A stretch of 64,000 bases of DNA from Apostichopus japonicus (lineage: Eukaryota; Echinodermata; Holothuroidea; Aspidochirotida; Stichopodidae). This document shows positions 12,961-45,800 of the stretch, one piece after another. The stretch spans positions 23,917,168-23,981,167 of the forward strand of contig NC_092569.1 in the NCBI RefSeq assembly GCF_037975245.1. Reading direction: 5' to 3'. The position numbers and the translations under genes are program-made. The notes under the pieces are model-generated. The model saw only the letters and a list, made by a program, of their open reading frames with translations. It was not told the DNA's origin and searched no databases. Every line of letters starts with the position of its first letter. Position 1 is the stretch's first letter.

Positions 12961-12966
12961 ACTATA

Positions 12967-13440
12967 CACTGAAAAAAAAATTGACATTGTTATGAGTAGT
13001 TTCAGTCTAAAAACATAGACTGACTCACTTTCAGGGCTCATCTTACTCGTATTTCTTAATTTAAATCAAACTTGGCGTCATAGTAGAGCCGTTTTTGTTT
13101 ATATCTCCCCGTATCATAGAGTTACTCACTTTGTAATGAAATTGTACCTACGAAGCTTCTGAACTTCCTTAATGTTGTCTGTGTATACTCATTACCGTTT
13201 TCTGTTTCGTTTTGGGGGTCAATACAATCTATCTGAGTAATAGTTAAATGAGTTGAGAAACACAGTGCAACTTTGTTTATAAAGTTGATGAGTATTTTTA
13301 ATAATGGTTGCGTACACCTACGCACCGTACCGAGAACTGTCACCTCCGCTGGGTAACTGGACTCAAGCTCATAACACTCATCTGAAACGCACTCACGCAA
13401 TATCCGTTTAAGCCGTATGCACATCGTGAATGCATTCAAG
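12967..13440. promoter_or_regulatory. Left subterminal repeat zone of transposon 1
   Basis: Words such as GACTCACTTT, CTTACTCG, GTTACTCACTTTG and ATACTCATTACC recur here. Matching TTACTCA and GAGTAAT words occur at 27830-28020. They are probably protein-binding repeats. A minus-strand open frame at 13122-13439 overlaps this zone and is not called. Confidence 0.55.
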
Positions 13441-14870
13441 ACTTGATAAGAGCAGGTAGGGTATATTTTTACTTAAATGCCACAACGGTTATACTTTTAT
13501 TGCAATTCTATCGATTGATCTGGTTTAATTCGGGTGAAATTCGTGTTTTATTTCTGTTTTATAAGCCAAGTCCTGCACGTTTGTTGCTACGCGAGCAGGC
13601 AGCTAACCCACGTTAGGCTAGTATATAAGATCGGACGCTAGTAGTACTTGGTACAATAACACTAGGCTAGTCATAAGTTAGGCCTATACACAAAACTGCG
13701 AGATACCTTGAACCTGGACGTTTATGATTTATGTTAGGCCAGGCTATAGTAGTCGCATACTGTTACTGTTGATTGCAGTGTTAGGTGTGGCACGGAAAGT
13801 GAAACGTATTAGAAAGTTAACAAAACATAGAAAATGACCAAGCTGTAGGCTTTAGCTATAACTTGTATGATGGTAGGCTGTATTACCGCGATGCTAAGGG
13901 CCTTTTTCTTTCTCAAAAAACTTATGATGAAGCCGATCGTTCTGTTTCCCGACCATTATTAAGTATTAAAGTCTCCTTCATATATTTTGATCAAAATAAA
14001 GTTGATTCACAACCCTGAAGATGTCAATAAACGTCGATAAATTATCTGTCTTGACGGTCGAAGCCACAGAAAATTTCCCATACATCCGCGGATACACACG
14101 TACAAAATTTACATACTGGAATATTGCGGATGTGCTTGACAATCATGTCCTTTTGAAATATTTCATTTGATCTGCTATTACCATAGTGCAATCCGATTCA
14201 CCATACTGTGTGCTTTGTAAAGGTATCCGTACAGGTTTTAGGCCTTCAAATGACAACAAATTTACCTTTAATTATTTTACATTGAAATTACACAAAAATC
14301 ACAAGCACAAATGTATCGCAACCCAACGACACTGGAAACTTGAAAACTTGATGTATATTCAACAAAAACAGCTCAGCATACCATTTTGGTTTGCATTGTG
14401 GATACTGTAGGTTACTTCTGCTTTAGTTGAATGTGAGTGTCAATGTTATTCTTCGTGCTTTGCCTATTGAACGATTCAAATTTGCACGTGAGATACGCGG
14501 TATTACAGCATTCCATCATACTACTACTAGTAGTGGAGCTAAGAAAAGTGACATTTCCAAAGTAGGTTAGCTTAACTATGCTATGCATAATTCAAAGTCA
14601 CAAGTGTTTGGTACAGTGACAATATTTCCCAGAATGTGGAAAGTAACTTAGGCATAGTTTATATTGCTATACCTAGCTTACCGTAATTGAACTCATATGC
14701 CAGTAGGAGTAGGCTAACATTTAAATGTTACAAAGTATAACTTACTGTGAAAAAGGTGTAAGGGGAGGGGGGGGGGTCTCGGGCAAAAATATTCACTAGG
14801 GGTCAAAGGGTGGAACTTTTTGGTTTTAATGATCATGATCTTTGCAGCCATGCTGGCATGTGTAGATGTG
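13441..14870. other. Transposon 1 5' region, nothing recognised
   Basis: No convincing exons. Short open frames are unrecognised. A G-run lies at 14762-14776. Confidence 0.4.
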
Positions 14871-14879
14871 TATGTGTTT

Positions 14880-15835
14880 GGATGTATTGAGGATGTGTTT
14901 GTGATGCCTAGAGCTTGTAAACATACTAAATTAAGTGCAAGAAGCCTGTTGTATTGGCTAAAGTCTAGGGTCATTTTGGGTCAATTTTTGAAAATCTTGT
15001 AAACATGATATCTCAAGTAATGAAGCTTATACAGATCGCACATCATTCCTATGTAGGTGAACCACACTGTGCACAAGAAACCTATTGTTTATGGTGGAGG
15101 TCAAAGGCCACTCCAGGTCAACAGGGGTCAAGTCACTGAAACCTTGTAAACGTAGTATCTAAAGAAGGGAGGCGACACAAATGTAATATATCTTACATGT
15201 AGCTTTACCACCTTGAGTACTGGAAGCTTATTGACTTTGGTGTAGGTCAAATGTAAACATTTGGTATCAACAAGGGTCAATTTGTGAAAACCTTGTAAAC
15301 ATGGTATCTCAAGCAAAGAAGGGTAAGGTAGATCTCACCATTTGTATACATGTAGTGTACGGTGTACCATATTGAGTACAAGACGTTTATTGTTTTTAGT
15401 CATTTGGGGTCAACAGGGGTCAAATTGCTGAAACACTGTTTAGTACAGTATCTCAAGAAGGGAAGCTTGTACTGATATTATGTGTAGTACTGTATGTAGG
15501 CTGGTAAACATGATATCTCAAGAAGGGAACTTGGACAGATCTCGGATTTTTGCTATGTAGGTGAACCACATTGAGTACAAGAAGCCTTTTGTTTTTGATG
15601 GAGGTAAAAAGTCATTTGAGGTCAACAAGGGGCAAATTGCTGAAACCTTGTAGCCACAATAATTCAAGCAAGGTGGGGTTAGTACATATTTCATAGGTTT
15701 ACATCATTGAGTAACAGAAGCCTGTTGATTTTGATGGAGGTCAAAGGTCATGTACAGGGTTCAGTTTGTGAAAACATTTGATTTCTCAAGAAAGGAAGCT
15801 AAGACAGAATTCATCATTATAACGTTGTTGTACAA
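14880..15835. repeat. Degenerate tandem array with AGGTCA words
   Basis: Imperfect units of about 150-170 bp recur, with the words GAAGCCTRTTG, GATGGAGGTCAAAGGTCA, TCAACAGGGGTCA, AACCTTGTAAACATGGTATC and TCTCAAGAAGGGAAGCT. Related single units occur within later introns at 20010-20070 and 22980-23150. Confidence 0.75.
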
Positions 15836-16147
15836 ACAATAATGTTATGTTGATTCTTTTACAGGAAATTGTGATTGGACCCCCACTATTTGGGTTGAAA
15901 TGACTCTCCCCCAGAATCCCCAATCACCATGTGTGTTTGGCACTTGACTTTAGCCATTTCCCATGCATCAAGTTTGAATGTCATGTGTTGCATAGCTATA
16001 TAGGTAATATTTTATATATTGGAAAATATCAGTACACCAAGAAAATTTGTTGTAAGTGTAATCTGAATATTTCTTTACAGTTGATGTAATTTTATTGACA
16101 GAAGGAAGTTGTTTCTTTTTTTTATAGCCCCTTCCAGCAAAAGAAAA

Positions 16148-18646
16148 ATGGATGGTGCTTGCTCATCAGGTAATATACAACAAATATCTTGTGTAATGGC
16201 CTATCAGTGTCAACGGTGCAGAAAATATCAAACAAATAAGTTTAATTCTTTTATGCAGCATCTGAGGCTACTTCATTCACATGAGCCTGATTTCAGTGTT
16301 AGATGTGGAATTGAAAGTTGTGAAAAGGTATACAAAAAAATACCCTCATTCTTGAGTCATATTCACAGAAAACATCCACACTTTAAAGGTGGCATATCGC
16401 AGACTGAAGTTTGTAGGCAGATAGATTCTGGAATAACTTTTTCAACTGAATCAAATGAGTATAGTGTAGATGAAGCAGCTGGTCATGCACCAGTACATTC
16501 TATTAAGATGAGAGATTGTAAACAAGATCTGGCATTGATGATCCTAAAGTGGCAAGAGATGTATCAACTACCTAAAATCCATGTCAGCAATATCTTAAGT
16601 GACATTGGCTTTCTTGTCTCAGCAAGTCACAAGCAATTTTCAGAGGAAACTTGTAAAATGTTCCAAGATCACGGGTTTGAGGTGAATGACAATCCTACAC
16701 TAAAGCAGTTTTTGGACAGAAATGAATTGGCAGAGACTTGTACACATATGCAGTCAGAACATAACCAAATGCAATATTTCGAAAGCAATCTCCCACTTGT
16801 TCAATCTACAGCGATAGTCCTTGGTAGGGATGAGCATGGTAAAATTGAAACATTCCAATATGTTCCAATTCTGGAAATGTTAGAATTGATTCTTTTGAAT
16901 GATGATGTGTTTGCAGAAGTGATGAAATCCACCCACAACCAACAAACAGGGGAAGTAGCCAGTTACAATGATGGAAATTTCTTTAAAGAAAATAGTTTGT
17001 TCCAAACTTATAAGACATCTCTGCAAATTGTTTTATACAATGATGATTTTGAAGTTTCGAACCCTATTGGAACATTTACCAAGAAGCAAAAGCTAAATGG
17101 CATGTATTTTAATTTAGGTAACATTGATGCCAAATTCAAGAGCAAACTGCATGTCATTCAGTTAGTGTCACTATGTAAGAGTTCCTTGATCCAAAAGTAT
17201 GGACTATCTAAAGTCTTTGAGAGATTGATTACTGATCTTCAAACATTAGAAACAAATGGAATGAAAGTAATCAAAGATGGACAAGAATACTTGTTTTTTG
17301 GAACAGTCACAATGATAGTAGCTGACAACTTGGCTAGTCATCAGATTGGTGGGTTCATGGAATCTTTCAGGGCAAATAGAATTTGCAGGTTTTGTATGTT
17401 AAGTTATACAGAGCTTAAGTCCGGAAAGTTTGACATAGCTAGTACTATTAAAAGAACTAAAGAAGTATACTTTCGCCATGTAGAGGTTGTACAAAGAGAC
17501 CAAAGCCTAGCCACTGTTTATGGAGTGAAAACGAATTCTGTATTTAACAAGCTTGACTATTTCCATGTTACTAGGGGCTTGCCATCAGATCCAATGCACG
17601 ATTTGTTGGAGGGAGTCATTCCAAAAGTTTGGGGAGAAGTTTTAACTTGCTTTGTCCAGAGGAAGTTGGTCTCCCTGAATCAGCTGAATCATGACTTAAA
17701 ACATTTTAGGTATAAAGGTAGTGACAAATCAAAGATACCAGCTCCCCTTATTTGGACCCAGAGTCATGTATATGTAAAGCAGACAGCTTCTCAAATGTCT
17801 GGTCTAATGAAAGTTTTATTCTTCGTACTAGGAGATATAATTCCACAATATGATGACTATTGGCAGCTTCTCATACTATCTGCAGATATCTGTGACCTTG
17901 TATTTGCACCAAGGCACAATGAAGCAACAATAGTTATGCTACATGGCCTAGTTCAAGATTTCCTTGAGCTCTACCTTGACCTTTTCAAGGATGGCCTCAT
18001 ACCTAAAATGCATTTCTTAATGCATTACAGTGACCAAATTAGAAATTTTGGACCATTGTCAGCTTGCTCTACTATCAGATTTGAGGCTAAGCATAGCTAC
18101 TTTAAAGGTTTGGCACGTAAAACCAAAAACAGAAAAAATTTGTGTTTAACCTTAGCTAAACAACACCAGTTATTGCAGAGTTTGTATCACATCTCTCCAT
18201 GTTTTTTGGAAAGTGATGAGAAAGATTCAGTGGGTGGATCTCTGTGTGCTGTAGAAAATTTATTACAGGACGTCCAGCATGCTGTGAGGGATATGTTTGG
18301 ACCTATCTCTGAAGTATTCAGATGTACTGCAGTAGTGATAAATGGCAATAGATTTGATGAAAATTCAGTGGTAGTAACAGGTACAGAGAAGAATGTCCTG
18401 CAGTTCAGCATTGTCAAAGCAATTTTTCTCAGGGGCAGTCGTGTCTATTTTCTGGTTTCAGAATTGGAAAATGTTCAGTACTCTGCTCATTATCACTCTA
18501 ATATTGTCAGACCAAATTTCAGTGGCAAAACACATATTATTGAGCCAGAGGATCTTCTTGATTTTCGGCCGTTGGAGTATTATTTCTGTAATGTTGGAAT
18601 ATGTATCCCTCAAAGATACCGGTTGTTGGAGGAATTCATTTGTTAG
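16148..18646 (+). CDS. C2H2 zinc-finger, MHDLLEG-type transposase-like protein of transposon 1
   Basis: This is a single-exon gene of 832 residues from the preferred ATG. The frame is open from 16109, but a polypyrimidine acceptor (TTTTTTTATAG) lies between, so the upstream 13 codons are doubtful. Numbering from 16109: finger 1 C34-C37-H51-H56, finger 2 C66-C71-H84-H89. The central region has TMIVADNLASHQIGGFMESF then CRFCM (D406), and DPMHDLLEGV (residues 495-503). The C-terminal region has PKMHFLMHYSDQIRNFGPL and RFEAKHSYFKGLARKTKN (E659). These boxes recur in repeated, uncharacterised animal proteins and fit a DDE-type transposase; the catalytic assignment of D406, D498 and E659 is a guess. 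No stop or frameshift, so the element may be functional. No coding similarity to the next gene; it should act in the nucleus on the element ends. Confidence 0.8.
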   Translation: MDGACSSGNIQQISCVMAYQCQRCRKYQTNKFNSFMQHLRLLHSHEPDFSVRCGIESCEKVYKKIPSFLSHIHRKHPHFKGGISQTEVCRQIDSGITFSTESNEYSVDEAAGHAPVHSIKMRDCKQDLALMILKWQEMYQLPKIHVSNILSDIGFLVSASHKQFSEETCKMFQDHGFEVNDNPTLKQFLDRNELAETCTHMQSEHNQMQYFESNLPLVQSTAIVLGRDEHGKIETFQYVPILEMLELILLNDDVFAEVMKSTHNQQTGEVASYNDGNFFKENSLFQTYKTSLQIVLYNDDFEVSNPIGTFTKKQKLNGMYFNLGNIDAKFKSKLHVIQLVSLCKSSLIQKYGLSKVFERLITDLQTLETNGMKVIKDGQEYLFFGTVTMIVADNLASHQIGGFMESFRANRICRFCMLSYTELKSGKFDIASTIKRTKEVYFRHVEVVQRDQSLATVYGVKTNSVFNKLDYFHVTRGLPSDPMHDLLEGVIPKVWGEVLTCFVQRKLVSLNQLNHDLKHFRYKGSDKSKIPAPLIWTQSHVYVKQTASQMSGLMKVLFFVLGDIIPQYDDYWQLLILSADICDLVFAPRHNEATIVMLHGLVQDFLELYLDLFKDGLIPKMHFLMHYSDQIRNFGPLSACSTIRFEAKHSYFKGLARKTKNRKNLCLTLAKQHQLLQSLYHISPCFLESDEKDSVGGSLCAVENLLQDVQHAVRDMFGPISEVFRCTAVVINGNRFDENSVVVTGTEKNVLQFSIVKAIFLRGSRVYFLVSELENVQYSAHYHSNIVRPNFSGKTHIIEPEDLLDFRPLEYYFCNVGICIPQRYRLLEEFIC

Positions 18647-18659
18647 TTAATTTATGAGG

Positions 18660-19082
18660 CAGTTTTCCTTGTAGAGGGTTTAGCTCAATGAGTTAAAGCA
18701 GTGTGTTAGGTTTGATAATGCATTAACCACAGTATAATGTTCATATTTAACAACAATAACTAACACATATGCATGTGCCTATAACAGTACAATGCCGTGG
18801 TTGGATTACTTTTTTGTCAGGTGAAATACCTAAAGTGAAGAAAAGTTTGGCTGACCTGTCATTTGCACTATCATTTGCTGATCATGCTCATTTTATGTAT
18901 GCCATGGATCTTTGCGGACATGACAGACTGAATGTTACTGACTCCATCATTGGTGAAGAGCGGGCCATCATATTTTGGGATGTTGTTGGTTTTTTGGCTG
19001 TTGCAAATATTGCCTTTAGAGAAAAATGGTCTGTTCATCTTCACTTACTTAACAACACAGTCCAATTTTTCTAACAGACACA
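18660..19082. other. Spacer between the two transposon genes
   Basis: A 101-codon open frame (18769-19074) has no recognisable motif. This may be the 3' end of the transposase gene and the promoter of the next one. Confidence 0.35.
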
Positions 19083-22000
19083 ATGGACTTTCTTGTATGC
19101 TATGGAGAGGACACATTTGTCATAAAAGTGGGCAGTAGTGATGAGCTTCTCTCATCAATCAGGCAGAAATTTTCAATCTCGGAAAGTATTCAGCTTAAAC
19201 TTAAAGTCTACAACAATGACTGGAATGAGTGGGTCAACATATCCTTACATGAACTGAAAGGCAAGGAAAAGCTAAAAGTTTTCACAGACACTCTTCCTGG
19301 ACTTGATGTGTTTGAAATTCCTTGGACATCACCGGTAACAGGGTCCTCAGCTGAAAGTTCTTTTTTAGACTCTGATGTAGCTGAGGCACTTGAGGGAGGT
19401 GATGACTTGTCCTCAGAAATAAGTTCACCATCAACATCGCACCAAGAAATGGATCAGCTGTTGTCACAGCAATTGCCATCAACACCACAAGCAGCTACAC
19501 AGCAAGAAGTGGAACATCCATCATCGATAGAGAAGAATGTTTCATCTGCAGCTCTAAAACCAATGAGGTCCATTGGTTCTTCTAGCTTTACCCTCCAAAG
19601 GTAAAGTATGAACAAGTGGATCCTTAAATTAATATTTATGATTAAACTAAAGTTCCAAAGGGTCACATATTGGCTTGCACCTCTTTTATCAAATAGTCTT
19701 TTACTGGCCATGTTTGCCAATAAGTATTGATAGAGGACTCGAGTCAGAAGCCACAGTGAAAATATCTCCAAACGTGTTATGTACTGAGATGCACTCAAGC
19801 CAAAGTGACCCTTTCTCTTTGCAGAGCACTGAAACACGGGCCAATGTGACAACAGCATGACATCTACTATGTGCTGAGATACAACACAATATGGTTTTGA
19901 TGAAATCATAAACCTATACGTTCATGCTGGTGTGGGTGTGTGCGTATGTGTGTGTGTGTATGCTTGCATGTTGGTGTGTACAGTATGTGTGAGTGGTGTG
20001 AAGCCCAGCTTGTAATCACGATATCTCAAGAGAGGAAGCTTTGACAGATATACAGTATTTGGCATGTAGGTGTTTTCACTTGTACTGCTGTTTGATCAAG
20101 TTTCTTAATAACACTCACTATAATGTACAATATAACTGATTGATAAAATATTGCTCATGTTATTTCATCAAAACCACAATTCATGTGTACACTCTGGTTT
20201 ATACGTGCATTGTACAGCATATTGACACTGGCCAGTGTAACAATATAGGAATACTTGTTATGTACGTACTGACTACTGAGACACAGGCCATTATGTATCA
20301 TTACTGTACATGCTATTGGGGGAGCCATCCATAGTGACACTATCTCATGCATGCTTGAGACAAGTTGAATTAATGCATGTTATGCTCTAAGACTCAGACC
20401 AGAGTGACAATATGCCTGCTGGTTATGTACAGAGAGAGAGGCCGGTGTGATAGTAATTCGTTTCATGCCTTGTTGTCGAAGAGAAATACTTGTATTAATG
20501 TTATTCTCTATTTCATACGGTTGTTACTAAATGCACAATGATTGATTGAAGAAAACGATGTAGAGGAAGTAAAGTTGGACCTTGGATGTCCTGACCCAGA
20601 CTACAGTAGTCTCCGACTTGGCCTGTGCTGGACTCACACTTTTCTTGGACTTATACTTGGATATACTGGACTCAACAAGCAAGTGACATTTAATGTCCTA
20701 ATGATAGTGGTCAAAATGTTTGAAACACTTATTTACTGATATTTGGTAATATTGACTATCACAAGATTTGGTTGTTTTTACAGAAGAGAAATCCCTCTGA
20801 AGCCATGGCCATCGAAGTTTGAAATTCCAGTGACATCAATGTCCCATACACTACGTTGTTCACTTGAGAAGGGTATATTCCCCAATGAGAGGCTCAGAAG
20901 GCAACTAATTCAAGTTCTATATGATAAAATGACAGAGTATGAAAGGTAAATACATGTTTTGTGTCATATGCTTACACTGAAAAATAGAGTTCATTTGAGT
21001 TCTGAAAGGTTCTTTGTTCCAGTATTACAGGTCTCAGTCTTGGAAAACTGAATGCATACAGTATCATAGATTCTGTACTGATGCCAAGCAGTGAAGTGAT
21101 GTTTGTCTTTTTCCCTTTTCCATTTAATGCAATTAAATGTGGCATTTTCCTTTTTGTTTATAGTCATGAATATGAAAGAAAGTTTTTGTGGTTTAAAAGC
21201 CTAAATTATATGCAAAATATATTACTTTGACAGTTTAACACAATTTAATTGAATATAGGTACCCAACCAAACGGCAGTATGATGATGTTGCATGTGCACT
21301 TGTTGAAACCTTCCCTCATCTGGCTCACAACATCCCATGTGCTAAGCCTTACGTAAGTCCTGATTAAAATCCTCATTACTTTTCATATTAATTTCAGTAT
21401 TAAAAGAACAATTTGACACACCCATATACCTACATTGCTGCTTCAATATATGTGATGGTGATGATAATGGGTGTGTTTTTGTGTGTGATGTTTGACATCA
21501 AAGTTGCAAGAAAAAATCATTTGAATTCAAATATGGTATGTTAGTACCCCATTTTGGAAGCGTAATAAGCAAACTAAAGATTGATATAGTAGCTGTTTTT
21601 GTTGTTATTATTCTTGTCTCCCAATGCAAAAAAAGGTGCAACATAAGTGTCTTTTCCCCAAGTAAAGTTGCATACCTATGAGTACATGTGTTTCTTGGTT
21701 TGATTACACTATTGTCATACAAAAAATTGACCACCTAATGTACTCGATATCCACCTTATATATTTAACTGTGTTCAATATTTACTACGTTAATAGGATTT
21801 CTGGAAAGTGAAGCTCAGTGACAAGTTCCGTAATGAAAGGAAACACTTATTGGGGGCTGCTTTACCTGCAAGAAAGAAGATAAAGATATCTCCAAGTGGA
21901 CATACATTGATGAATGCTGATGAAACTAAAGGACTAGGAGAAGATGAAAGAAGTGTAGAGATGCACCAGAAGTGAGTGTGTTCAGGAATATGTAAAAATC

Positions 22001-25000
22001 TTCATAGGGTCTCAAGAATCCAAGGAGGAAGTCTCTCATTATCGGTTAACCCCACCCCACCTCCCTCTTTGCCACCACTTTAATTATACTACTGAAACCT
22101 ACAGGCTTTTATCTCAAATTATGCCAGGTGAATCTTTAGCTACACCATAACAGCTGAGAATAAGAAAGTCTTTTAATACAAAAAAAAAAAGAAACGAACA
22201 ATGAAAGCTCTGTATATTTCTGCAATCATTGATGTGCATGAATAAAATTGTTATCATACCTCCAGCATCAAAATAGCTCTATGCAATGTCTAAGGTAGTA
22301 ATCCTTTATAATATCTGACACTTGTTGCTGTTTGTGTCCTCTTGAATAGACAGTCTTTAGTTACAGAAGTGCAGAAAGGACAAAATTCATGATATCTTCA
22401 ACCATTGCTCTATTGCTAACAGAGGTTCTTGCTGATAATGTACAATATTGATTAATCCTTGTGATATATAATTTAGTGAACTCTTTTGTATTTGGCACAG
22501 TTTCAGAAGTATCTTTGGATTAAGAACCCAACAAGGAGGGGTCTTGTATTTATTTTGTTGGTTGATTACAATGAGCTCATGCGGGTATATATCTATTTGT
22601 GGACAGTAGTGTTATTGAAAAACATTTTTAATCTTCTTGTTTATCACTTTAAAGTATGGCTTGGTCCTATTTTGTTTACAAAAATGCAAATATATTTTCT
22701 GAATTTCATAACTTACAGATTTATGAAACAAGAACTTCTAAAGAAGAAGATAAACATGGCAAAAGTAAGGGAACTAATGGACGTAACTTTCTGGCACAGA
22801 AGGAAGAGTATAATTGAGACTAGGCTTATGGTTTCAAACTTGTTAGAGAAGTATCCAGCACTAAAGGACTATCAGGAGGTACAAAGCTACTCTTCCGTTT
22901 TAACGAATTTGCAAACCAATGTATTCATGCTGGCATATGTGTGTTTGTGTGTCTGTGACGCCCACATTGAAAAGACAATATCTGAGGAGAATCTTTGAAC
23001 AATGTCATATTTTGTAAATAGCTGTACCATTGAGTGCAAGAACCCTATTGTTTTTGGTATGGTTAAAGGTCATTTGAGGTCAACAGTGGTGGAATCGGTG
23101 AAATTTGCAAACTTGATCACTCAAGACGGGGAAGCTTGGAGAGAACAAACGTTTATTATGCTGATGTATTAAATGACAATTGAAGCCTATCAGTGGTCAT
23201 CTTAGAAAATATTGTTTGTTACATCTCAATGCTTTTACTGCATTACTTAGATCAAGCATGTTGTTCTCCCTCCCAATACAATGTGTCCAATTTAAAAACA
23301 TATTGCATCTGTTACTTCATCTAAACCAGTTTTATCCCTGCTAGCAATTAGCACTTTGCTTCATGCATCATGTTTAATGTGGTACAAATTTGATAAAAGG
23401 GAGAAACCTAGGAAACAGTTAAAAGTGCGATGCAGCTGCTGAAATTTCCACCATCAGTGTTTAAAGCTGTAACACCAAGTCTAAACTCTGCCTCAGTTCC
23501 GGATGCTGGTCCATTTTTACTGGACTCCACAATATCCCAGAATGGAAGGTTAACCAACTGGAATCAGTGTTGGCCCAGACTTCAGTTTGGTGATCAAGTG
23601 TACCCCCCTCCCCCACCCTCCCACCCCCCTGCAAAACCTTTAATTGGTTTCTATGCCAGAGTCAAAAGTCTTTGTAGTCAACTCGGCGTGTGTATGTGAG
23701 GCCTAAGCCCTAACATGAAATCTAAAGAACTGTAAGGCTGCTTTTGTTCATACTTACCACAATGTTACATCATAGCTCAAGGACGGTCCCTATTGTGTTT
23801 GTCAATGTTAACGTTTAAAACTTAAAAATGCAATTTCCCTAAACAATGTGTGATATTGATTTCATATTTGATATGAACATGTTGGTTGACCATTGCAACA
23901 TTTGTAGATCCTTTTTGATTTTGCTGATTGAATATTCATAAGGGGCAGGACCAAATCAGATTTTAACTTAAGTTATTTTGCAAACACTAAATCTGAAGAA
24001 GTGCAGGTTTGTTTGAATTGATACTTAGCACAATAATGCCCCATGGCCCAAGGATGGTAGCTATTGTTTTAGGTGCACATATCACACAAAGTAATGAGTG
24101 GGCGGGGCTTAACATGACAAATTTATAAATACAATTTCTTGCTAACCTTATGTGATATTGATTTCCTATTTGATATGAACATGTTCGTTGACAATTGCAT
24201 TATTTTTAGCTCCATTTTAATTCTGCTGTTTGAATATTCATAAGATATATGACCAAATGAAATTTTAGCCGAAATTCTCGTAAACAAGAAATCTTTGTAA
24301 GTGTAGGTTTGTTTGAGTTGATACTTATTACAATGATGCCCCATGACCCAAGGATGGTCCCTATTGTTTTAGGTGCACATATCACACATAGTAATGAGTG
24401 GGCGGGGCTTAACATGAAACACTTAAAACTGCAATTTCTCTCTAACCGTATGTGATATTGATTTCATATTTGGTATGAACATGTTACTGTAGTTGACCAT
24501 TGCAACATTTTTAGCTCCACTTTAAATAGAATAATTGAATATTCATAAGGGATGGTACCAAATGAGATTTTAGCTAAAATTCCTGTAAACTCTTAATCTG
24601 AATAAGTGTAGCTTTGTTTGAGTTGATACTTGGCACAATGATGTCCCATGGATGTTCCCTATTGGTTTAGTTGGTGATCAGATGCATATTAATGAGTGGG
24701 CAGGGCTTAACATGAAAAGCTTAATCTTCGGTTGTTTGAGTTGAGCTTGTTGGTTGACCATTGCAACATTTTCAGTGCTGTTTTCATATTGCTGACAACA
24801 TTCCTTCCTAAATCATGATGATTGTACTAATGTACAGTATGCTTGCCTGATTTTCCTTCCCAACAAATGTCCTTCAAAGTGGAATGTGAAATGTGTGTGA
24901 AATGCAAGTAGTGGCACTGTACAGTATAATGCCAAAGAAAAGCTTCATCTGATACAATTTGGAATTTTTAATAAACTACGAAAGTAACTCATAATGAAAT

Positions 25001-26767
25001 GGGGTTTTTTTTTTGCAGTTGCAAAGAGAATTCCAAAGAATCACTGCAAGTGAAACACCCATATCATCTCTTAAGACGAACATGCAGACAATGGCCAAAG
25101 ACATTAGAAGAGTAATGTTGACAAAGAAAAAAGAAAAGGTCATCCAGCTCAACTTGCAAGACATAGTTTCGTCAGATCCTGCAAGAGAGAAAGGTACACC
25201 CAAGTTACAAACCATATGTTGCAAATGTTTAGGGGTTGCCAAGGGGTTATTACTCATTGGTATGAAAATCTTTACCATGATTTTTAAATCAATGTTAGAG
25301 ACATGCTTGATATTCAGTACTATTGAACATTCAAACATTAGCAATTTGGTAGAGGGTAGTATTAATACCTTGCCAAGGGAAAGAGGAACATATTAGGACC
25401 CTAAGAAAGACCTATACCAAATATCATTTAGTAATCAGGTGAACTTATTTATAGTAAAGAGCCTTAAGGATTACTTTGGACAAAAAGTTAAACCACCTGT
25501 GGTACATTGTCCTGTGCTTAAAGTATTTGAGGATGGTTACCATATGCTGGGAAACTGTTGAAGTAACTTGGTAATATATGCTGGAGACAAACCACTATAT
25601 CTTAACTCCCAGGTACTAATTGGCAATAGAAACAGTACTTTCGTAGATAGGAGTGATATGATGACTGGCATAAAGCAAATACCTTTTATTAAAATGCATT
25701 TATGTTTCATTAATTCTCACACTTACTGTAGAACTACCACTGGTGTACAGTTAGGATCCAAACCATTCATGTACATTGACTGAAAGACGTATTCCAAATT
25801 GACTGTGATGTATGGCAGCACCTACGCCTAAACCATTTTAAAGATTTTTTTATCCCTGTTTGATATCTGACATGAAAACATTCATTAAATCTGATGCATG
25901 TCCTCCTTTTACAGATTTAGAAATTACTTCTGCAGTATTTTTACTGCCCTACCTGTTTTCCAAAAGTTCATCTCTTATCAACCATTATGAGAAAAGGAAT
26001 GACATACAGGTATGACACATTGAAGCTTTTAAATTTGAAAACACAAATATTGCCTGGTTAAAGGAATTTAAAATTTGCAAAAGTGTGCTAAATCAGGATT
26101 TTAGTTTTGATGTCACAGTTCAACTATAAATTGACCATTTACATTGTCTAAGCAGTCTACCAATTGAGTTTTCTAGTCATTAACACTGGCAATCATAAAC
26201 ATCAAAACAATGGCAACAATACTGCTTCAAAATTCTTCATCTGAAAATTCTGCTCAGACATTTCTCAAGGGTTCAGTGATATGGGTATATAGTTTAGAAA
26301 TATTGATATGTGCTACAATTGACGGAAATAGAGAAATGTTCATTGTGAATGTAACTTGGAAGGTGGCATGTCATGTTATGATGCCAATGCTAGTTTGTGA
26401 ATGCAACATAACACATCTGAAGCTTGTTTGCAATTCTTTATAAATATATTACATGTCAATGTATACAGCAGTGGATATTTTCTTCTTTTACACATTGCAG
26501 GATGCCTCCCCATGTCTCCTTTGGGAGGGAGATAGTCCTCTTGCAGCAACGAGCCTAGCAATAATGGCAGAAGGGGAAATCTTTGGAAGAAGTTCAAATG
26601 CCATGGAAGCACTAGCCACCCTCATTGCAACTTATTGGGTTTTTGACATGGCGTACCCAAAACAAGATAAAGACTTTTTTAACTTTTGTGAAGTGGCTCT
26701 ATTGAAGTTGACCTCAGTTCAACCTACAAGGCAAACAAGTAACATGTTGATCAAGTTAAGGTGTTAA
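19083..26767 (+). CDS. Multi-exon SAMD3-like protein gene of transposon 1
   Basis: Exons that I can support: 19083-19601 (start MDFLVCYGEDTFVIKVGSSD, a PB1/ubiquitin-fold-like N-terminus, then a Ser/Gln-rich linker); 20784-20945 (REIPLKPWPSKFEIP to LYDKMTEYE); 21259-21352 (RYPTKRQYDDVACALVETFP); 21796-21971 (DFWKVKLSDKFRNERKHLLG, then a KKIKIS basic patch); 22719-22878 (MDVTFWHRRKSIIETR to EKYPALKDYQE); 25019-25193 (LQREFQRITASETP); 25915-26009; 26501-26767 (WEGDSPLA to TYWVFDMAYPKQDKDFFNF). Their order and motifs resemble proteins annotated as SAMD3-like, abundant as repeats in fish and invertebrate genomes; I recognise the family but not a proven function. Copies of the same exons occur in transposon 2, so the gene travels with these elements. 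The 3' end is uncertain: a further exon near 26930-27109 is possible. Confidence 0.68.
22980..24790. repeat. Intronic repeats: one AGGTCA-type unit and a 305-bp tandem array
   Basis: At 22980-23150 there is a unit like those at 15 kb. From about 23720 to 24790, units of about 305 bp recur: GTTTGAGTTGATACTTRGCA, GATGCCCCATGRCCCAAGGA, AATGAGTGGGCGGGGCTTAA, TGATATTGATTTCATATTTG and TTTGAATATTCATAAG. There are three to four copies with small indels, all within the intron between 22878 and 25019. Confidence 0.8.
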
Positions 26768-27249
26768 GGTCTAATGTTTTGAGGGGGAAAATTTGGACTT
26801 TTAACTTTTATACACTGTTACGTTTTTAGTGAGATGAGTTACGAACTTAACGGTTTTGGCTTATTTCCTTGTTGGTTATTTAACACTCATTTAGAACTCC
26901 CTTTGATACTTTTTATGTGTCTTTAGCAGCTGGAAGCATTCTCGAGGAATATTGTTATAGACAAGACAGAGATTTCACTCTTTCATAAAGTAAAGGTCCA
27001 ACCACTACCTGATAAACAGGTTCAGTATATGCTCCTTTTATTATTTTTGCCGATAACAATCAAGTTTGTGTTTCACAGGCATTTTTTTATGTTACTAACT
27101 TAAAACAACTCTTATGTAAAATTTTGTTTTGATATCTTCAAAGTTCAAAGTGTAAATAGCATATGCGTCCAATGATTGTGGTTTAGACAGACTTGTACAT
27201 CTGTACATAACATTTGAGAGAGAAAATTGAAAACATTTCAGTTTGGATT

Positions 27250-27480
27250 ACATCAGTGGTTCCCAACCTTTCACAGATCAGCACCCTCATACCCTAATGG
27301 CATTTGGAAAATGGACCCCTCCCCTATGCTTTAAAAAACATAATGCCAGATTCTTCTGTTTATCTTGATTTCGATTTATAAAAACAAATTAGAGAGCTCA
27401 GTGGAAAGTAGACAGAATCTTTTTAACCCCAGTTTAAATTTAGTATCTCATTCTTTTCAAACACCCTTCCCCTGAAATGT
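27250..27480. mobile_element. Possible hAT-type MITE remnant
   Basis: CAGTGGTTCCCAACC at 27253-27267 is a typical hAT terminal word. The matching end and the target duplication were not found, so this is tentative. Confidence 0.35.
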
Positions 27481-28051
27481 TAAAACGCCTAACATACAGT
27501 TGATGTTCAAGGATTTCTTTTATTTATCAGTATTCAATGCTTTTATCGTTGTTATATGAAGTATTTACCTATTTTCTAGTGTCAGGTTAAGGAGTTATTG
27601 TTCATTTAACTCATCTAAAGTATCCCATACATTCATAATTGTTTCATTTTTTTTGTTTCCCTCAGTCAAGAGTTTAAATAAAGTTGCCAAAATAACCATA
27701 TCTGAAATCCAATATGTTGTGTCCTTTGTTTAAGTTTTCTATTACCCAACTGGGAGTGAAGACAATCAAGGGAGTGTAAAATAATGCAATAAGATTTAAA
27801 AATAAGAGGGAAAAGAAAATGCACTTAAGTGAGTGTATTGACACACTGAATGAGTAAACCTAAACACTCTGAGTAATATTAGTAAAACATGCTTAAAAAA
27901 TAGGATAAATTGTAAAACTCACTAACATGAGTAATCCGAACTAAACATGAATAATAAAACTCTGTCATTGTGAGTATTTTTAAACAAACAAATGCATAGA
28001 TTTTAGGACGGGATTACTCAGCTGGTATGGGTAAATTGTTTTTTCAGTGTA

Positions 28052-29289: not shown

Positions 29290-30870
29290 AAACCAAACTG
29301 AAGCTGATCAGACATAAAGTTGTCAGTTGCACTCATGAATATAAATGAAATTTCAGTTTCCTGTAGCACTACTGTACCAACCTACCAAGTATGAAGGTGA
29401 TCAGACATATATTTGAAAAAATATCGACATTTTAAGAATTTGATTACAAGCCCCACCCACATATTCATGTACTGGACAACAAAAACAATGAGGTCCATGT
29501 AATGATAATGTAGCATATCTACAAGTTATTCAATACATTTACAGTAATTAAATTTATTGTTTTTAAGATTATACATACACTTGCAAACATGCTAAACTGT
29601 AGATTACCTGGCCATCGTAAACAAAACCAAAAATTAATGCCTTTATTGATGTACATATAAAGTTGAAAAAAAGTGATATAGTTGACTCTAGGCATTTCAC
29701 CACCCCACACCCCCTCTCCAGACAAACACATGGGGATCATACGACACAACCCATATCCCCAACCCAGAGCGGACCCTTACCATCATACCACCTGCAGCCT
29801 CACCTACCATCCTACAACCCTGATCCCAACATCACCCTACTCATCTGACAACCCCCCCCCCCACCTGACACCCATCAGATTTTACCAGTTTCACACCTCA
29901 CTACCAACACATTAATCTACCCCACTCACATAAGATTTCCCTATACTCTATAGGTACATGTACAGTAATACCAGATTATTAAGTTCATTTACTATTTTCA
30001 CTATAGACTATCCCTTTAATTGTCTGAGCCAGCTATTTATGCAACATACATATACACACATACCCACACGCAAACTTGATCAAAACATACAAACATGCCA
30101 ACTCATCACAACATACACATATGCCAACTTAATTGCAAAGGTTACTTTTTTTCAGTCCAGTTTAATTTGTCACTGGACTACTCCTTTAATGGCCTGGCTA
30201 GCCAATTTCATGGTTTTATAAAGCAAAACAAATATAGATAAGATCAGCAAGCTCCCAGGAACCAGGAAAACATGTCAAACGTGACGAATGACAGGAGTTT
30301 AGGAATGAGGGACAACAAATGCTATATGGCCAACAAACACATGAATATTAATGAGGTTACATGTTATTTCCATATGAAAATGTAACTATTATTATCCACC
30401 ACCAATCAACAAAGTATGCAGATGATCGGTTATACCGTTGCAAAGTTATTGACATTTTAAGAATTTCACTTTAACTGCTGCCTACTCATTAATATTCATG
30501 TCATGAACAACAAAAACAATAGGGAACATCTACTAATCATGGAGCATGTACTAGTTCAAAATGACAGTAATTCAACATTTAATTTCTAAGATTTCAGGTT
30601 TACAAGCTATTTCTAGCAATTAAGGATTAAGCCCCACCTACTCATGAATATTAATTAGATGAAATTCCATTGTCATGTGACAATGAACCACTTACATCAC
30701 CATACCAAGTATGAAGCAGATCGGACATACCGTTGCGAAGATATTGACATTTTAAGAATTTTACTTTAAGTCCTACCCACTTATTAATATTCATGTGATG
30801 GAGAACAAAAACAATAGGGACCATCCACACATCACCAGTCCAATATGACATTGATCCAATGTGTCGTTGT
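29290..30870. repeat. Diverged repeats of about 200-300 bp within transposon 2
   Basis: Recurring words: CCAAGTATGAAGCAGATCGG, ACATACCGTTGCRAAG, TATTGACATTTTAAGAATTT, CCCACTTATTAATATTCATG and AACAAAAACAATAGGGACCA, at about 29390, 30410 and 30705. A C- and CA-rich stretch (29700-30120) separates copies. Confidence 0.65.
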
Positions 30871-30931
30871 TGAGATATCGTGTTTACGAGCAAGCTGTCA
30901 CATCACACACACACACACACATACATGTTTG

Positions 30932-36141: not shown

Positions 36142-36299
36142 TAGACCGGCAGCCCAGAGCACTTTGATCAAACGAACGAGGTACCAATATCTGAGTATTG
36201 GAACATTTGTGGAGAAACCCAGTATATCCAAAAGTGGACGTCTGCCGTGGTCGCTCTGCTGCATGTGGCCCATGGGGCCGGTTAAAGGGGTCCAAAAAA

Positions 36300-37040
36300 T
36301 GCATCTGATCAAACGAACGAGGTACCACTTGAAACCAATGTCAACTTAATGCATGAATGCCACATAGTACTGAATGGCCCATGACAGACAAATTTTCTGC
36401 TGCAAAGGGCCCGCCAGACGCCCCAAAAGGGCCCCTAAAAATGCATCTGATCAAACGAACGAGGTACCACTTGAAACCAATGTCAACTTAATGCATGAAT
36501 GCCACAAAGTAATGAATGGCCCATGCCATACAAATTTTCTGCTGCTAAGGGCCCGCCAGACGCCCCCAAATATGGCCCAAATGCCCATTATCGTAGCATT
36601 GACCCAGATTAAATATGCAAGGTACCACTCAAAACCGGTTTGGAATGTTCGGGTTGACCTTACAGACTATGGAAATAATCATGCCAGACAAATTTTCTGC
36701 TACAAAGGGCCCGCCAGACGCCCCAAAAGGGCCCCTTAAAATGAATTTGATCAAACGAACGAGGTACCACTTGAAACCAATGTCAACTTAATGCATGAAT
36801 GCCACAAAGTACTGAATGGCCCATGCCAGACAAATTTTCTGCTGCTAAGGGCCCTCCAGACGCCCCTAAATATGGCCCAAATGCCCATTATCGTAGCATT
36901 GACCCAGATTAAATATGCAAGGTACTACTCAAAACCGGTTTAGAATGTTCGGGTTGATCTTACAGACTATGCAAATAATCATGCCAGACAAATTTTCTGC
37001 TACAAAGGGGCCAACAAACACACTAAAAAAAAGGGCCCCC
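36300..37040. repeat. Composite A/B tandem repeats in the left foldback arm
   Basis: A units at about 36306, 36448 and 36748; B units at about 36594 and 36894. An A+B pair spans about 300 bp. Long open frames through the arm are a by-product of the repeats. Confidence 0.8.
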
Positions 37041-37920
37041 AAATGGGCTATGATCAATCATAGTTGGTACCACAAAAAAACCAATATCAAATGCAAAGGT
37101 ACTTTCCACAGATTAAAGAACTGCCAATGCAAGACAAATTTTCTTCTGCATAGGTCCCACCAGATAGAAAGAATAGGTTGCCCAATGCGGCCCTATATGG
37201 GCCTAATGGATTGTATATTGATGCAGAATATATGTGCCTTGTGACATGACATTTGTAACATTCCACAGAGTAAAGAAATGCCAATGCAATACAAATTTTC
37301 TTCTGCAAAAGGCCCTCCACATGTAAAAGAAATATGCAGTTTAAATAGTTAAGATGCCACAAGAAACCAATCTATAACAATCAAGAACATCCTGAATTAT
37401 TCAAATTCCTTCCCGCTACATAGGCCAATGGAATAATGAGATTAGTATACTAGTAGGTGTATCAATTACTGAACATTTCATTGAGCAAAACAAAAATGAC
37501 GCGAACTCAGTCTTTGAGGGAGATCCTGACAGTTATAATGCATTCTCAAATCCATTCTTGTTCCTTTTATCTATTCTTTTTCCTTTTATCCAGTCAGTAC
37601 TTTGTATCGTGAGCAGTGTTTAACTTGACAGTTACTTTGTTTCGCTGGAAACACTGGAGCAGATTAAAATCAGTTTATGTATTGTAAATAAGAAACCAAA
37701 AATCATTTTGTATCTTAAAACACTGTGTTTACGTTAGCATTGTAAATCTACAAAGTTTAAAATCTTGAGAAAGAACGCTCAAGTGTCATCTTAAGACATA
37801 CATGTAGTCGAACAAAAGAGATTGTTTTGTTTCTTAAGCTCAGACAAAGAAACAATTATCAAACAATGGTGAAAATGCTTGATAACTTGTACTTAACGAT
37901 AAAGGTTTGGGTTGAAAGTA

Positions 37921-38013
37921 ATGCTTCAATTATGTATCTTTTAAAAACCATATTGGACAGTTTCAAGTTGAAACTGTCCAATATGGTTTTTAAAAGATAC
38001 ATAATTGAAGCAT
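37921..38013. repeat. Perfect palindrome, 46-bp arms, 1-bp spacer
   Basis: ATGCTTCAATTATGTATCTT at the left is mirrored exactly by its complement at the right, centred on G37967. No mismatch was found in 46 bp, and pairing stops sharply outside. It would form a cruciform or RNA hairpin. Confidence 0.95.
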
Positions 38014-38569
38014 AGAAATGTATATGTACCTTTATGCTGGGTACACTCTTTAAAGGACTTAAAATGCTAAGATTGAACAAACAAATACTGATATCACCAC
38101 GTATGACTCCATTCCCTGATACAAAATATAAAATGAGTAATTGGCGTATATTACTCCATCTTGGTCTTTTAGAACTTCCATCATTACACTAATTCAATTC
38201 GAATAGCTTGTAACAAGTCCAACAAATAGATGTGGCATCCATTTTTCAGAAATATGAATGCTAGATGAGGGTTTTTGTTTTCATCTATGAAGGGATCTTT
38301 TACCTTTGAAGAAAGTCATCTTGCTAGTTTAAAATGTACTAAAATCATAATTGGCAAAGATAGTAACAAAAGATCATTATGTGATTACTCTGAACATGAC
38401 ACATGTTAGGTTCGAAGTATAAGAACTGAGAATTCATGTCTCTTGACAGTGATTAAACACTGGAGTGTGTGCATTGTAAAAAGACACTGCATTTGCCATT
38501 CAGACAGATCTCTAAGTTTATGAAAATTAAGTATTCCCATGAACTTGATTCTAAAAAGACAATGGAAGC

Positions 38570-38800
38570 TCAAATCAATGTTTCATTGTCGGAGTCATCA
38601 CTCCAAGATGGTTCAGTACTTGAATCATCGCCATCAAACTCGGAAGCCACGTCTGGTCGGCTACTTTGAAAATCTTCGCTCAGTTCCCCCTCTTGGAATA
38701 GATGATCTGGGAGAGCCGGTCCCTCAAACCAGTCAGGGCTGTAGCACCCATTCTTGCTCTTCCAACCGTAGTTCTGTGGATCCAAGCCAGGCAAGACTCT
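38570..38800 (-). CDS. Acidic unrecognised exon inside the foldback element
   Basis: It encodes LPGLDPQNYGWKSKNGCYSP, then DWFEGPALPDHLFQEGELSE and an acidic C-terminus (SEFDGDDSSTEPSWSDDSDN). There is no ATG; a stop lies just upstream, so if real it is an internal exon. Similar W-x-GP-LP plus acidic patterns occur in transposon-derived proteins, but I cannot name the family. Confidence 0.4.
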   Translation of the reverse strand, partial: RVLPGLDPQNYGWKSKNGCYSPDWFEGPALPDHLFQEGELSEDFQSSRPDVASEFDGDDSSTEPSWSDDSDNETLI

Positions 38801-39199
38801 TCCTCAGAGTGTTAGAATTATAATGTGGGGAACTGTAATTTTTGCCCAGGCCAGCAAATCCCAAAATATTTAGAGGCTTAGGTGAAAGTGTTATCTTTAC
38901 TTTGCTTAGAGCAGCGAATAGCTAAATAAGATAAAACACTGGTCTTGTGTACAGTAACTCCAATTTATGCTGGAAACAATATAATCATGAGCTTGAAATG
39001 TCATGTTACAAGGCACATATATCCAATTCTTTAGACCCATATATAGGGCCACATTGGGCCACCTATTCTTTCTATCTGGTGGGACCTATGCAGAAGAAAA
39101 TTTGTCTTGCATTGGCAGTTCTTTACTCTGCGGAAAGTACCTTTGCATTTAATATTGTTTTTGTGTGGATCCAAACCGGTTTTGAGTGGTATCTTGCAT

Positions 39200-40272
39200 A
39201 TTTAATCTGGGTCAATGCTACGATAATGGGCATTTTGGGCCATATTTGGGGGCGTCTGGCGGGCCCTTAGCAGTAGAAAATTTGTCTGGCATAGGCCATT
39301 CAGTACTTTGTGGCATTCATGCATTAAGTTGACATTGGTTTCAAGTGGTACCTCGTTCGTTTGATCAAATGCATTTTTATGGGCCCTTTTGGGGCGTCTG
39401 GCGGGCCCTTTGTAGCAGAAAATTTGTCTGGCATGATTATTTCCATAGTCTGTAAGATCAACCCGAACATTCCAAACCGATTTTGAGTGGTACCTTGCAT
39501 ATTTAATCTGGGTCAATGCTACGCTAATGGGCATTTGGGCCATATTTGGGGGCGTCTGGCGGGCCCTTAGCAGTAGAAAATTTGTCTGGCATGGGCCATT
39601 CAGTACTTTGTGGCATTCATGCATTAAGTTGACATTGGTTTCAAGTGGTACGGCGTTCGTTTGATCAAATTCATTTTAAGGGGCCCTTTTGGGGCGTCTG
39701 GCGGGCCCTTTGTAGCAGAAAATTTGTCTGGCATGATTATTTCCATAGTCTGTATGGTCAACCCGAACATTCCAAACCGGTTTTGAGTGGTACCTTGCAT
39801 ATTTAATCTGGGTCAATGCTACGATAATGGGCATTTGGGCCATATTTGGGGGCGTCTGGCGGGCCCTTAGCAGCAGAAAATTTGTCTGGCATGGGCCATT
39901 CATTACTTTGTGGCATTCATGCATTAAGTTGACATTGGTTTCAAGTGGTACCTCGTTCGTTTGATCAGATGCATTTTTAGGGGCCCTTTTGGGGCGTCTG
40001 GCGGGCCCTTTGCAGCAGAAAATTTGTCTGTCATGGGCCATTCAGTACTATGTGGCATTCATGCATTAAGTTGACATTGGTTTCAAGTGGTACCTCGTTC
40101 GTTTGATCAGATGCATTTTTGGCCCCCTTTAACCGGCCCCATGGGCCACATGCAGCAGAGCGACCACGGCAGACGTCCACTTTTGGATATACTGGGTTTT
40201 TCCACAAATGTTCCAATACTCAGATATTGGTACCTCGTTCGTTTGATCAAAGTGCTCTGGGCTGCCGGTCTA
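39200..40272. repeat. Composite A/B tandem repeats in the right foldback arm
   Basis: B units at about 39205, 39505 and 39805; A units at about 39340, 39640, 39950 and 40085, all inverted relative to the left arm. Confidence 0.8.
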
Positions 40273-40483
40273 GTAGATTGAGATGGTTTAGACATGTCGA
40301 AAGGGATGGAAGATGCGAATTGGTAAAGAAGTAGAGAGAGACTACTGTAGCTGGTCAATGTAGGAGCAGTAGGCTCCCCAAGTCTTGGGATGAGGACATG
40401 AGGTTTTGCGGAGTGATCTTGCTGATAAAGGTATAGATCGGGCTCTAGCTCAGAATAAAACAAAATGGTTTCTTTTTAAGGGG
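40273..40483 (+). mobile_element. LINE fragment, right part
   Basis: It encodes RLRWFRHVERDGRCELVKK, then SRRLPKSWDEDMR and, after frame shifts, DLADKGIDRALAQNKTKWFL. This is the well-known C-terminal tail of several LINE polyproteins (LRWFGHV-R, PK-TW-E, A-NR-KWR). It is the continuation of 36079-36141. Confidence 0.78.
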
Positions 40484-42857: not shown

Positions 42858-45800
42858 CTACATGCACAAACAAGCCTTAACCATCCTCATGTTTAAAAAA
42901 AGGTTTACTAATTGGGTAAATGTTGAACATTCACTGAGATTATGTTACTATCTTTTTAAGTGGGCCTATCCTTACTCCCGGCCCTAGGTTACCCTTAGTC
43001 ATTATTCATGGACAGCTTCTCAGAGTAACAAATAGACGCCCGAAAGCTGTCATAGTTTTCATGATGGTCTTGGTGCGGTGCAAAATCATGCATAGGCTAC
43101 TCCATATTAGTTTGGCCACTAGCTGTACCCTATAAGACTTACTAGGCCTAAACCAACAACTGTTCATCTATAGATAATAAAACAGATAAGGTAGGCTACT
43201 CTTGTACGGTTTTGATTTTCTAGCCGTCCCAGATGACTGTATAAATCCTACACTGTTAATATCTCATTTTCCAGTCTCTGGGGACAATAGTTTTGTGAGT
43301 GAATCAATTGAACTTAATTTCAAGCCATGTTCGTAGCACTCTTGACTTGTACTCCTAACATTGTACTCTTGTACAGTTTCAGATTGTGTGGACAATGCTT
43401 AATGCTTACTGTGCACTCTATTTTCTACTTTTAGAAATTAATCCAGTTACATTCAGTTATTGCCAGGAACTGCAGAACATGATATAGGTTAAAGCACAAT
43501 TAATCTTAGGATTTTGTCTCAAAAATACCCACTGCAACTGTTGCTAAAGTACACACATGTTGGAATTGCGTAGAATATAGAGCCTGTACATTTTCCTAAA
43601 TATTATAGATTTTCAAGTGCTGTCAAATCTGGCATAGTAACTCCACATTTCTTACTGTGTATACCTTCTTCATTTTACACAGGTTGTGATATTGTGGACA
43701 ATTATTCATTCTATATTGCAGAATAATATCAATTATTAAATATTATAATATAATATTTGCATGTGATTCTATTTTCAATTAACCAGCTGTATCAAGGCAA
43801 TGTAGTTAATGACTTTATATATGCTTTTTCAACAGGCAATGGAAACGGCTCTTGAAGTGTTCCAACCATTTCTTTTCCTAAAGATGGATGTTAATATCAC
43901 TGGTAGGTTCACAGAGGGCAATGACTTTAAGTTAACTGTGTAATAAACAGATTAGAAGATTAATGACTGCTTCATTTACAATTGTCGTTGTGTGAGTTAC
44001 CCGATCTGAATCAGCCTTAACTTTAAACATTAATACAGTATCTCCTTTTCCAGTCTCTGGGGACAATAGTTTTGTTGTTTTGTAAGTGAATCAATTGAAG
44101 TTAATTTAAAGCACACTCAAGCCATGTTCGTAGTCACTTGTACTCCTAACACTGTACTCTTGTACAGTTTCAGATTGTGTGGACAATGCTTAATGTGTAC
44201 TTTACCTTGTAACTGGTCTAATCAAAATAGGCATGAACGAAAAAATTTAAATACTGCGACTCCTCTTTCAGTCTTTGCAGACAATATTTGTCCAAATGAA
44301 TCAATTGAACTTAAGTTCAAGCACAATCAAACCATGTTAGTATTTACCTGAGCTCCTAACATGGTACCCTTATACAGTTTCAGATTGTGTGGACGATGCT
44401 TACTGTGCACTCTATTTTGTACTTTTAGAAATTAATCCAGTTCTTACATTCAGCTAATGCCAAGAGCTGCAGATCATGAAATAAGTTAAAGCACAATTAA
44501 TCTTAGGCTTTTGTCTCAACAATACCCACTGCAACTGTTGCTAAAGTGCACACATGTTTGGATTATGTAGAATATAGAACCTGTACATTTTTCTAAATAT
44601 TATAGATTTTCTAGTGCTGTTAAATATGTCGTAGTAACTCCACATTTCTAACTGTACCTTCTTCATTGTGCACAGGTTTGTATAAAGTTGACAATATAAC
44701 CTATTCATTCTATATTGCAGATGAATATCAATTATTAATTATTATAATATAATAAAGCATGTGATTCTATTTTCCATTAACCAGCTGTATCAAGTCAATG
44801 TAGTTATTGACTTTATATATGCTTTTTCAACAGGCAATGGAAAGGGCTCTTGAAGTGTTCCAACCATTCCTTTTCCTAAAGATGGACGTTAATATCACTG
44901 GTAGGTTAATTGAGGGCAATAACTTGAAGTTAATTGTGTAACAAATAGATTAGAAGATTAATGACTGCTTCAGTTACAATTGTCGTTTTGTAAGTTACCA
45001 GATCTGAATCAGCCTTAACCTTAAACATTAATATCTCCTTTTCCAGTCTCTGGGGACAATAGTTTTGTAAGTGAATCAATTGAACTTAGGTTCAAGCACA
45101 ATCAAGCCATGTTTGTAGTCACTTGTACTCCTAACATTGTACTCTTGTACAGTTTCAGATTGTGTGGACAATGCTTAATGTGTACTTTAACTTGTAACTG
45201 GCCTAAACAAAATAGGCATGAACGAAAAAGTATAAATACTGTGACTCCTCTTTCAGTCTTTGCAGACAATATTTGTCCAAATGAACCAATTGAACTTAAG
45301 TTCAAGCACAATCAAACCATGTTAGAATTTAATTGCGCTCCTAACATTGTACTCTTATACAATTTCAAATTGTGTGGACAATGCTTACTGTTCGCCTACA
45401 TGAACAAACAAGCCTTAACCACCCTCATGTTTCAAAAAAAGTTTTACTAGTTGGGTAATTGTTGAATATTCACTGAGATTATGTTACTATCTTTTTAAGT
45501 GGGCCTATCCTTACTCCCGGCCATAGTCTACCCTTAGTCATTATTCATGGACAGCTTCTCAGGGTGGCAAATAGATGCCCGAAAGCTGTCATAGTTTTCA
45601 TGATGGTCTTGGTGCGGTACAAAATCATGCAAAGGCTACTCCCTATTAGTTGGCCACTAGCTGTACCCTATCAGACTTACTAGGCCCAAACCAACAACGG
45701 TTCCTATATAATAGATAATTAAACAGATTAAGTAGGCTACTCTTGTAAAGTTATGATTTTCTAGTCGTCTTGGACGACAGTGTAAATCCAACACTGTTAA

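Follow-up and report, generated by a model that had tools for sequence, protein, structure and literature searches.

The DNA analysed here, called the window in the following, is a stretch of 64,000 nucleotides from the sea cucumber Apostichopus japonicus (contig NC_092569.1). Very probably it contains one structurally complete two-gene transposon of the CACTA-like type (CMC clade), whose second gene would be a long-standing component of the lineage and a helper resembling TNPA. The only CACTA-like element of the window extends from position 12967 to 28049 (15,083 bp), has inverted termini starting with CACTG and is flanked by a duplicated TA. Its two genes, a transposase and a downstream gene referred to as gene 2, form a mobile unit: in three related families both are located within ends that were defined by comparing copies. 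The same pairing recurs in many relatives in the genome, suggesting from the sequences that gene 2 belongs to the transposon rather than to the host.

The ends of the element were sought among all CACTG/CAGTG pairs lying 1-25 kb apart in the window (n=1,629). The pair 12967/28049 has the best terminal match of all (13 of 14 bases) and is the sole pair in which the terminal 300 bp on each side contain at least three GAGTAA/TTACTC motifs. Its left terminal inverted repeat (TIR; 12967-12986, plus strand) begins with CACTGAAAAAA, the same start as in family A described below, and agrees with the right TIR (28030-28049, minus strand) at 17 of 20 bases. The target site duplications occupy 12965-12966 and 28050-28051. 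Three motifs were found in the left subterminal region (12967-13266) and four in the right one (27750-28049), which is the densest cluster in the window. Over the outer 600 bp the element has seven motifs, as opposed to three in its remaining 14.5 kb.

Gene 1 is an open frame of 832 amino acids at 16148-18646 on the plus strand, as are all features of the two genes; its start codon is assumed. An earlier note on this stretch had described an intact C2H2/MHDLLEG protein, and this description was correct. The two N-terminal C2H2 fingers (16208-16276 and 16304-16375) gave weak profile matches to the zinc fingers of TFIIIA, GLI, REF6 and YY1 (E 0.036-0.9). In an alignment of seven members the transposase displays the complete CMC-type D-D-C2C-H3H-E signature. 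The candidate first and second catalytic aspartates, D299 (17042-17044) and D393 (17324-17326), and the C(2)C motif CRFC (C413-x2-C416, 17384-17395) are present in all seven members; the H(3)H motif HFLMH (H622-x3-H626, 18011-18025) and E646, the candidate last catalytic glutamate (18083-18085), are present in all six rows reaching that part. The CMC signature is defined in this way in PMC12730594, as D-D-E with C(2)C and H(3-4)H lying after the second D and before the E. The MHDLLEG motif (17594-17614) is exact in four of the seven members and varied in the other three. Two members matched Pfam Transposase_21 (PF02992; best E 6.6e-4) and one matched DUF4218 (E 0.012), the window protein itself matching neither. 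No relative turned up when the transposase alignment was compared with viral contigs.

Gene 2 is predicted as one gene of eight exons (19083-26767, 548 amino acids) downstream of the transposase on the same strand, as the earlier note had proposed for a multi-exon second gene. Each of the seven introns has GT-AG borders, and no stop interrupts the frame once the exons are joined. The protein consists of an N-terminal domain, a low-complexity linker, a basic core and a conserved C-terminal part. Exon 1 (19083-19600) encodes the N-terminal domain, which is possibly ubiquitin-like, and the linker; it is followed by exon 2 (20784-20945), exon 3 with the conserved YPT core (21259-21352), exon 4 with the conserved KLSDKFRNERK core (21796-21971), exon 5 (22719-22878), exons 6 (25019-25193) and 7 (25915-26009), and exon 8, which includes the stop codon (26501-26767). 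A ninth exon at 22501-22584 was dropped; the frame is intact without it, and relatives can be aligned in spliced form without such an exon. In the fifth intron a 300-bp unit is repeated in tandem about 2.8 times (23817-24650), and text resembling this repeat recurs, inverted, near 29300-30900 as judged by eye.

In searches with six gene-2 proteins, some of them partial, there was no significant match to any Pfam family, SAM included. No PDB entry was matched over the full length by sequence, and no known enzymatic or chromatin domain was significantly matched. In a profile search the N-terminal domain weakly resembled USP15 chains (E 0.04-0.05), which hold a ubiquitin-like domain; that it has a ubiquitin-like fold is a guess. 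The sole match of the core profile was a designed four-helix bundle (E 2.8e-4), which we take as a sign of helices and not of kinship. Gene 2 of family J, introduced below, gained no relative as a query, and exon 8 matched one relative, the locus of which was not placed.

To define exact ends, two copies each of three related families, A, B and C, were read. They come from the relatives of the transposase in the host genome (671.6 Mb), where the best 54 of 519 first-look candidates were scored. The two copies of a pair are about 99% identical inside, and outside the element no match between them reaches 200 bp; such near-identical copies with different flanks lead us to infer that the A, B and C elements are mobile. 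The elements measure 12.1-12.4 kb (A), 12.6 kb (B) and 11.3-12.1 kb (C), and their termini are CACTG, CACAC and CACAG, respectively. TA is duplicated at A1, A2, B1 and C1, and CA at B2 and C2. The stretch containing B1 includes 5,000 N; both ends of the B1 element were read and are flanked by letters. Exons of gene 2 lie inside all six copies, and the layout of the window element is that of these copy-defined elements. In the window element and in families A, B and C the GAGTAA/TTACTC motif occurs six to nine times in the outer 600 bp, versus 0.10-0.21 times per 600 bp inside; elements with three different TIRs thus have this subterminal motif in common. An element of a further family, J, is 10,480 bp long, has a TIR starting with CACTG that matches at 18 of 18 positions as well as a TA duplication, and contains gene 2. 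It has no GAGTAA cluster; its end motif is instead TAAACGTT. The ends of family D were not found within the 16 kb examined.

These elements have features of CACTA/EnSpm transposons (CMC clade). Termini of the form CAC...GTG with a short inverted repeat occur in the window element, A, B, C and J, and clustered subterminal GAGTAA repeats in all of these except J. The D-D-E residues are accompanied by C(2)C and H(3)H. A 2-bp duplication, TA or CA, is present at all eight elements with ends (the window element, A1, A2, B1, B2, C1, C2 and J2), J2 having been found with such a duplication as a search condition. Membership in Plavaka was rejected, because the ends are CAC..GTG and not TGT..ACA or CATCA..TGATG, by which Plavaka termini are defined in PMC12730594.

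How general the pairing of the two genes is was examined in two ways. A purpose-written spliced aligner was applied to the window itself and to the sequence following each of 13 further transposases (A-M). Gene 2 was found behind 12 of the 13, ten of them with scores of at least 220; in the two weak cases, E (97.5) and G (86.5), it was found as its N-terminal domain only. The maximum of the controls was 55.5, the controls being the reverse strands for E, F, K, L, G, H, I and M and the host flank in the run with E, F, K and L. Because H is a D-type copy and I an F-type copy, the window and the 13 others represent 12 families by our own grouping, which is based on identity. Gene 2 is present in 11 of these families, clearly so in nine, and the transposases of families with gene 2 are only 30-49% identical to that of the window. 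The second approach, a search by homology, used two queries for gene 2 (79 and 102 matches listed) and two for the transposase (54 and 57 matches listed). The matches listed comprise at least 111 gene-2 loci and at least 66 transposases. A gene-2 locus lies within 5 kb of 44 of the 66 listed transposases, as compared to 0.33 pairs expected by chance, and in all 44 pairs gene 2 is downstream on the same strand, 0.2-4.7 kb away. The two-gene mobile unit suggested by the earlier note is supported both by the copy-defined ends and by the uniform arrangement of the pairs.

The two genes also appear to have a history in common. Across six families the protein distances of the transposase and of gene 2 correlate with r=0.91, a value reached by three of 720 label permutations; all gene-2 models in this comparison were found starting from the window protein. 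Of the seven introns of the window gene, those after residues 226, 258, 370 and 428 have the same position and phase in all four families compared (A, B, C and D), and the intron after residue 316 is present in three of them (A, B and C). Among these families, the introns after residues 172 and 460 are found in B only.

Several observations weigh against this reading. Some concern the element and the history of gene 2. The last 400 bp at the right end of the window element have no other match in the genome in a DNA search, and because the right end has no second copy, the ends of the window element itself rest on motif and TIR evidence. The gene-2 tree is weakly supported and its branching order is unlike that of the transposase. 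Gene 2 of family J is open in a single frame through its first 413 codons, uninterrupted by the introns seen in the other families. Comparison of recent copies gave 17 nonsynonymous and 6 synonymous differences for gene 2, a ratio of about 0.74, with one pair, in family C, contributing 13 of these 17; for the transposase the numbers are 11 and 9 (ratio 0.31). Constraint on gene 2 is therefore weaker than on the transposase in these copies.

Other such observations concern the pairing. The 44 pairs are not independent, because about 20 of them are copies of family D, as judged by spacing and identity. No gene-2 match was obtained in the homology search for 22 of the 66 listed transposases. Five of these were read: both C copies clearly have gene 2, E and G have it weakly, and M has none in 5 kb (score 52.5, versus 54 on its own reverse strand). 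The other 17 were judged by homology search alone. Eight of them form a similar group that matches J at 31%, with no gene-2 match nearby (in the host genome, G000: C1:13349611, C2:5916538, C11:14443716, C1:1538391, C17:30796628, C22:8691615, C9:29267674 and C11:22061601). Of two contigs from other genomes, one (L031) ends directly after the transposase and leaves no room to show gene 2, and the other (L032) lacks a clear gene 2 over some 5 kb; its spliced score of 63.5 is slightly above the control maximum, and there was no tblastn match at E<=1. The record of L031 is titled as a metagenome-assembled genome (MAG) of Aquifex and that of L032 as a Cycloclasticus MAG, and these animal-type CACTA transposases are most likely contamination.

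The gene-2 loci themselves complicate the picture as well. The earlier note had regarded the second gene, which it called SAMD3-like, as transposon-borne and not a host gene. This is supported for the paired loci; it may not hold for every locus, because 67 of the 111 gene-2 loci are without a transposase among the 66 listed. These 67 cannot be called solitary, since the transposases considered are those among the matches listed. One of them was read on the left side of the element (L041, 1847-5000, from C6 of G000). It has the J left terminus with TA, then the 5' part of J and then gene 2; a clean deletion spans the whole transposase gene, and gene 2 has frame breaks. Judged by its sequence, this locus is a J-type element that has lost its transposase and keeps gene 2 only. 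A copy with gene 2 only, such as the earlier note had placed in the window, is not supported there and does occur elsewhere in the genome. Several other unpaired loci contain pieces with 93-96% similarity to J gene 2. Closely similar gene-2 pieces with no listed transposase occur in at least eight places besides L041. A further group of gene-2 relatives, with open frames of 392 codons, is likewise without a listed transposase (G000: C9:16460089, C15:13494408, C17:6202761, C17:8723577, C8:15327613 and C12:29159525); these could be more divergent elements or stand-alone genes.

A different interpretation of the window was given by the earlier note, namely two transposons with different TIRs, the second of which retains gene-2 exons only. 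A gene-2-only derivative does exist elsewhere in the genome (L041), and the CACTG found at 20975 agrees with the right end in 11 of 14 bases and has a TA duplication. Yet this site has no subterminal motifs and lies inside a gene-2 intron, and the candidate element 20975/28049 was rejected for these reasons. Moreover, exons 1-8 form one continuous frame that matches the family A gene inside one copy-defined element. The exons ascribed to the second transposon, presumably exons 6 and 7, are the last exons of the one eight-exon gene, and we consider this interpretation hardly credible. Almost as hard to uphold is the view that gene 2 is a fragment of a host gene, captured by transduplication and carried as a passenger with no function for the element. 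CACTA elements do capture host genes, and the weak constraint between recent copies would fit a passenger. However, the same gene is found at the same place and on the same strand in families whose transposases are only distantly related to that of the window (30-49% identity), its introns are largely common among the families, and it co-diverges with the transposase.

The preferred reading, a single element with gene 2 as its own component, leaves several ways in which gene 2 might act. Gene 1, the DDE transposase, would cut at the CAC ends. Gene 2 would assist it as TNPA does in maize En/Spm, either by binding subterminal DNA or by bridging the ends together with the transposase; alternatively, it might help by countering silencing. 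A helper role of gene 2 in transposition is probable, if with clear reservations. That gene 2 itself binds the subterminal motif directly appears doubtful, a low rating given because the transposase has C2H2 fingers of its own. A strict division of labour as between TNPA and TNPD, in which gene 2 alone binds the ends and the transposase fingers do something else, would agree with the conserved basic core of gene 2 and with subterminal repeats like those of plant CACTA elements. Since the two fingers could bind GAGTAA, and since family J has the different end motif TAAACGTT, we regard such a division as rather unlikely. Nor do we expect, on balance, that gene 2 acts against silencing, or in demethylation, as a factor outside the cut-and-paste machinery. 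Accessory genes in DNA transposons of several lineages, for example fungal TET/JBP, are thought to serve the escape from silencing (PMC12730594), and in maize TNPA itself reactivates a promoter that is methylated (PMC1636069). On the other hand, gene 2 matched no known enzymatic or chromatin domain significantly.

Comparison with known systems places the element near several of them. Plant CACTA elements such as En/Spm of maize (TNPD and TNPA) are alike in having CAC-type inverted termini, a tnp2-type transposase and two proteins, and they contain repeated subterminal motifs, as the window element does. Gene 2 does not match any Pfam family significantly. Whereas in maize both proteins are spliced from one transcription unit (PMC1636069), here gene 2 is apparently a separate downstream gene that has exons of its own, as far as the gene sequence tells. 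SmTRC1 of Schistosoma and its relatives share with the present elements an animal Transposase_21-type enzyme, 2-bp duplications and a second protein suggested to be the analogue of TNPA; their ends start with CCC instead of CAC (PMC1636069). As stated in that paper in 2006, no relatives of the second proteins of Schistosoma could be detected in other elements of animals or fungi; gene 2, in contrast, is conserved among 11 families within a single genome, clearly so in nine. The fungal CMCT clade with TET/JBP has D-D-E, C(2)C and H(3-4)H as well and carries an accessory gene. This is a different accessory gene, however, and fungal EnSpm elements make 3-bp duplications (PMC12730594). No description of the present gene pairing was found in the literature searched, which did not include Repbase and most subscription papers, so that a prior description is possible.

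Outside the element, the window contains further repeats. Inverted repeat arms at 86-2920 and 56866-59560, about 54 kb apart, have pieces that are 96-99% alike, and an open reading frame in the left arm resembles, by eye, part of a long interspersed nuclear element (LINE) reverse transcriptase. Each arm of a large inverted repeat at 36142-40275 includes tandem units of 142/300 bp. At 43247-49435 a unit of about 760-1,000 bp is repeated in tandem six to seven times; these units contain exon-like stretches starting after CAG and are perhaps a tandem exon array.

A wider hypothesis is that the SAMD3-like animal genes represent the helper component of an ancient two-gene CACTA lineage of animals, and that SAMD3 of vertebrates arose through domestication of a copy of this component and its fusion with a SAM domain. 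We put this forward tentatively and rate it below an even chance. The part of vertebrate SAMD3 after the SAM domain presumably resembles the conserved gene-2 core; SAMD3 differs in having a SAM domain, which was not found in the gene-2 proteins searched. If the hypothesis is true, the origin of SAMD3 would be a counterpart to that of RAG1, from a related transposon group. The conserved second gene is in any case a concrete helper candidate for animal CACTA elements. Its recognition could move a number of uncharacterised genes into the class of mobile-element genes, and it provides SAMD3 with a testable origin.

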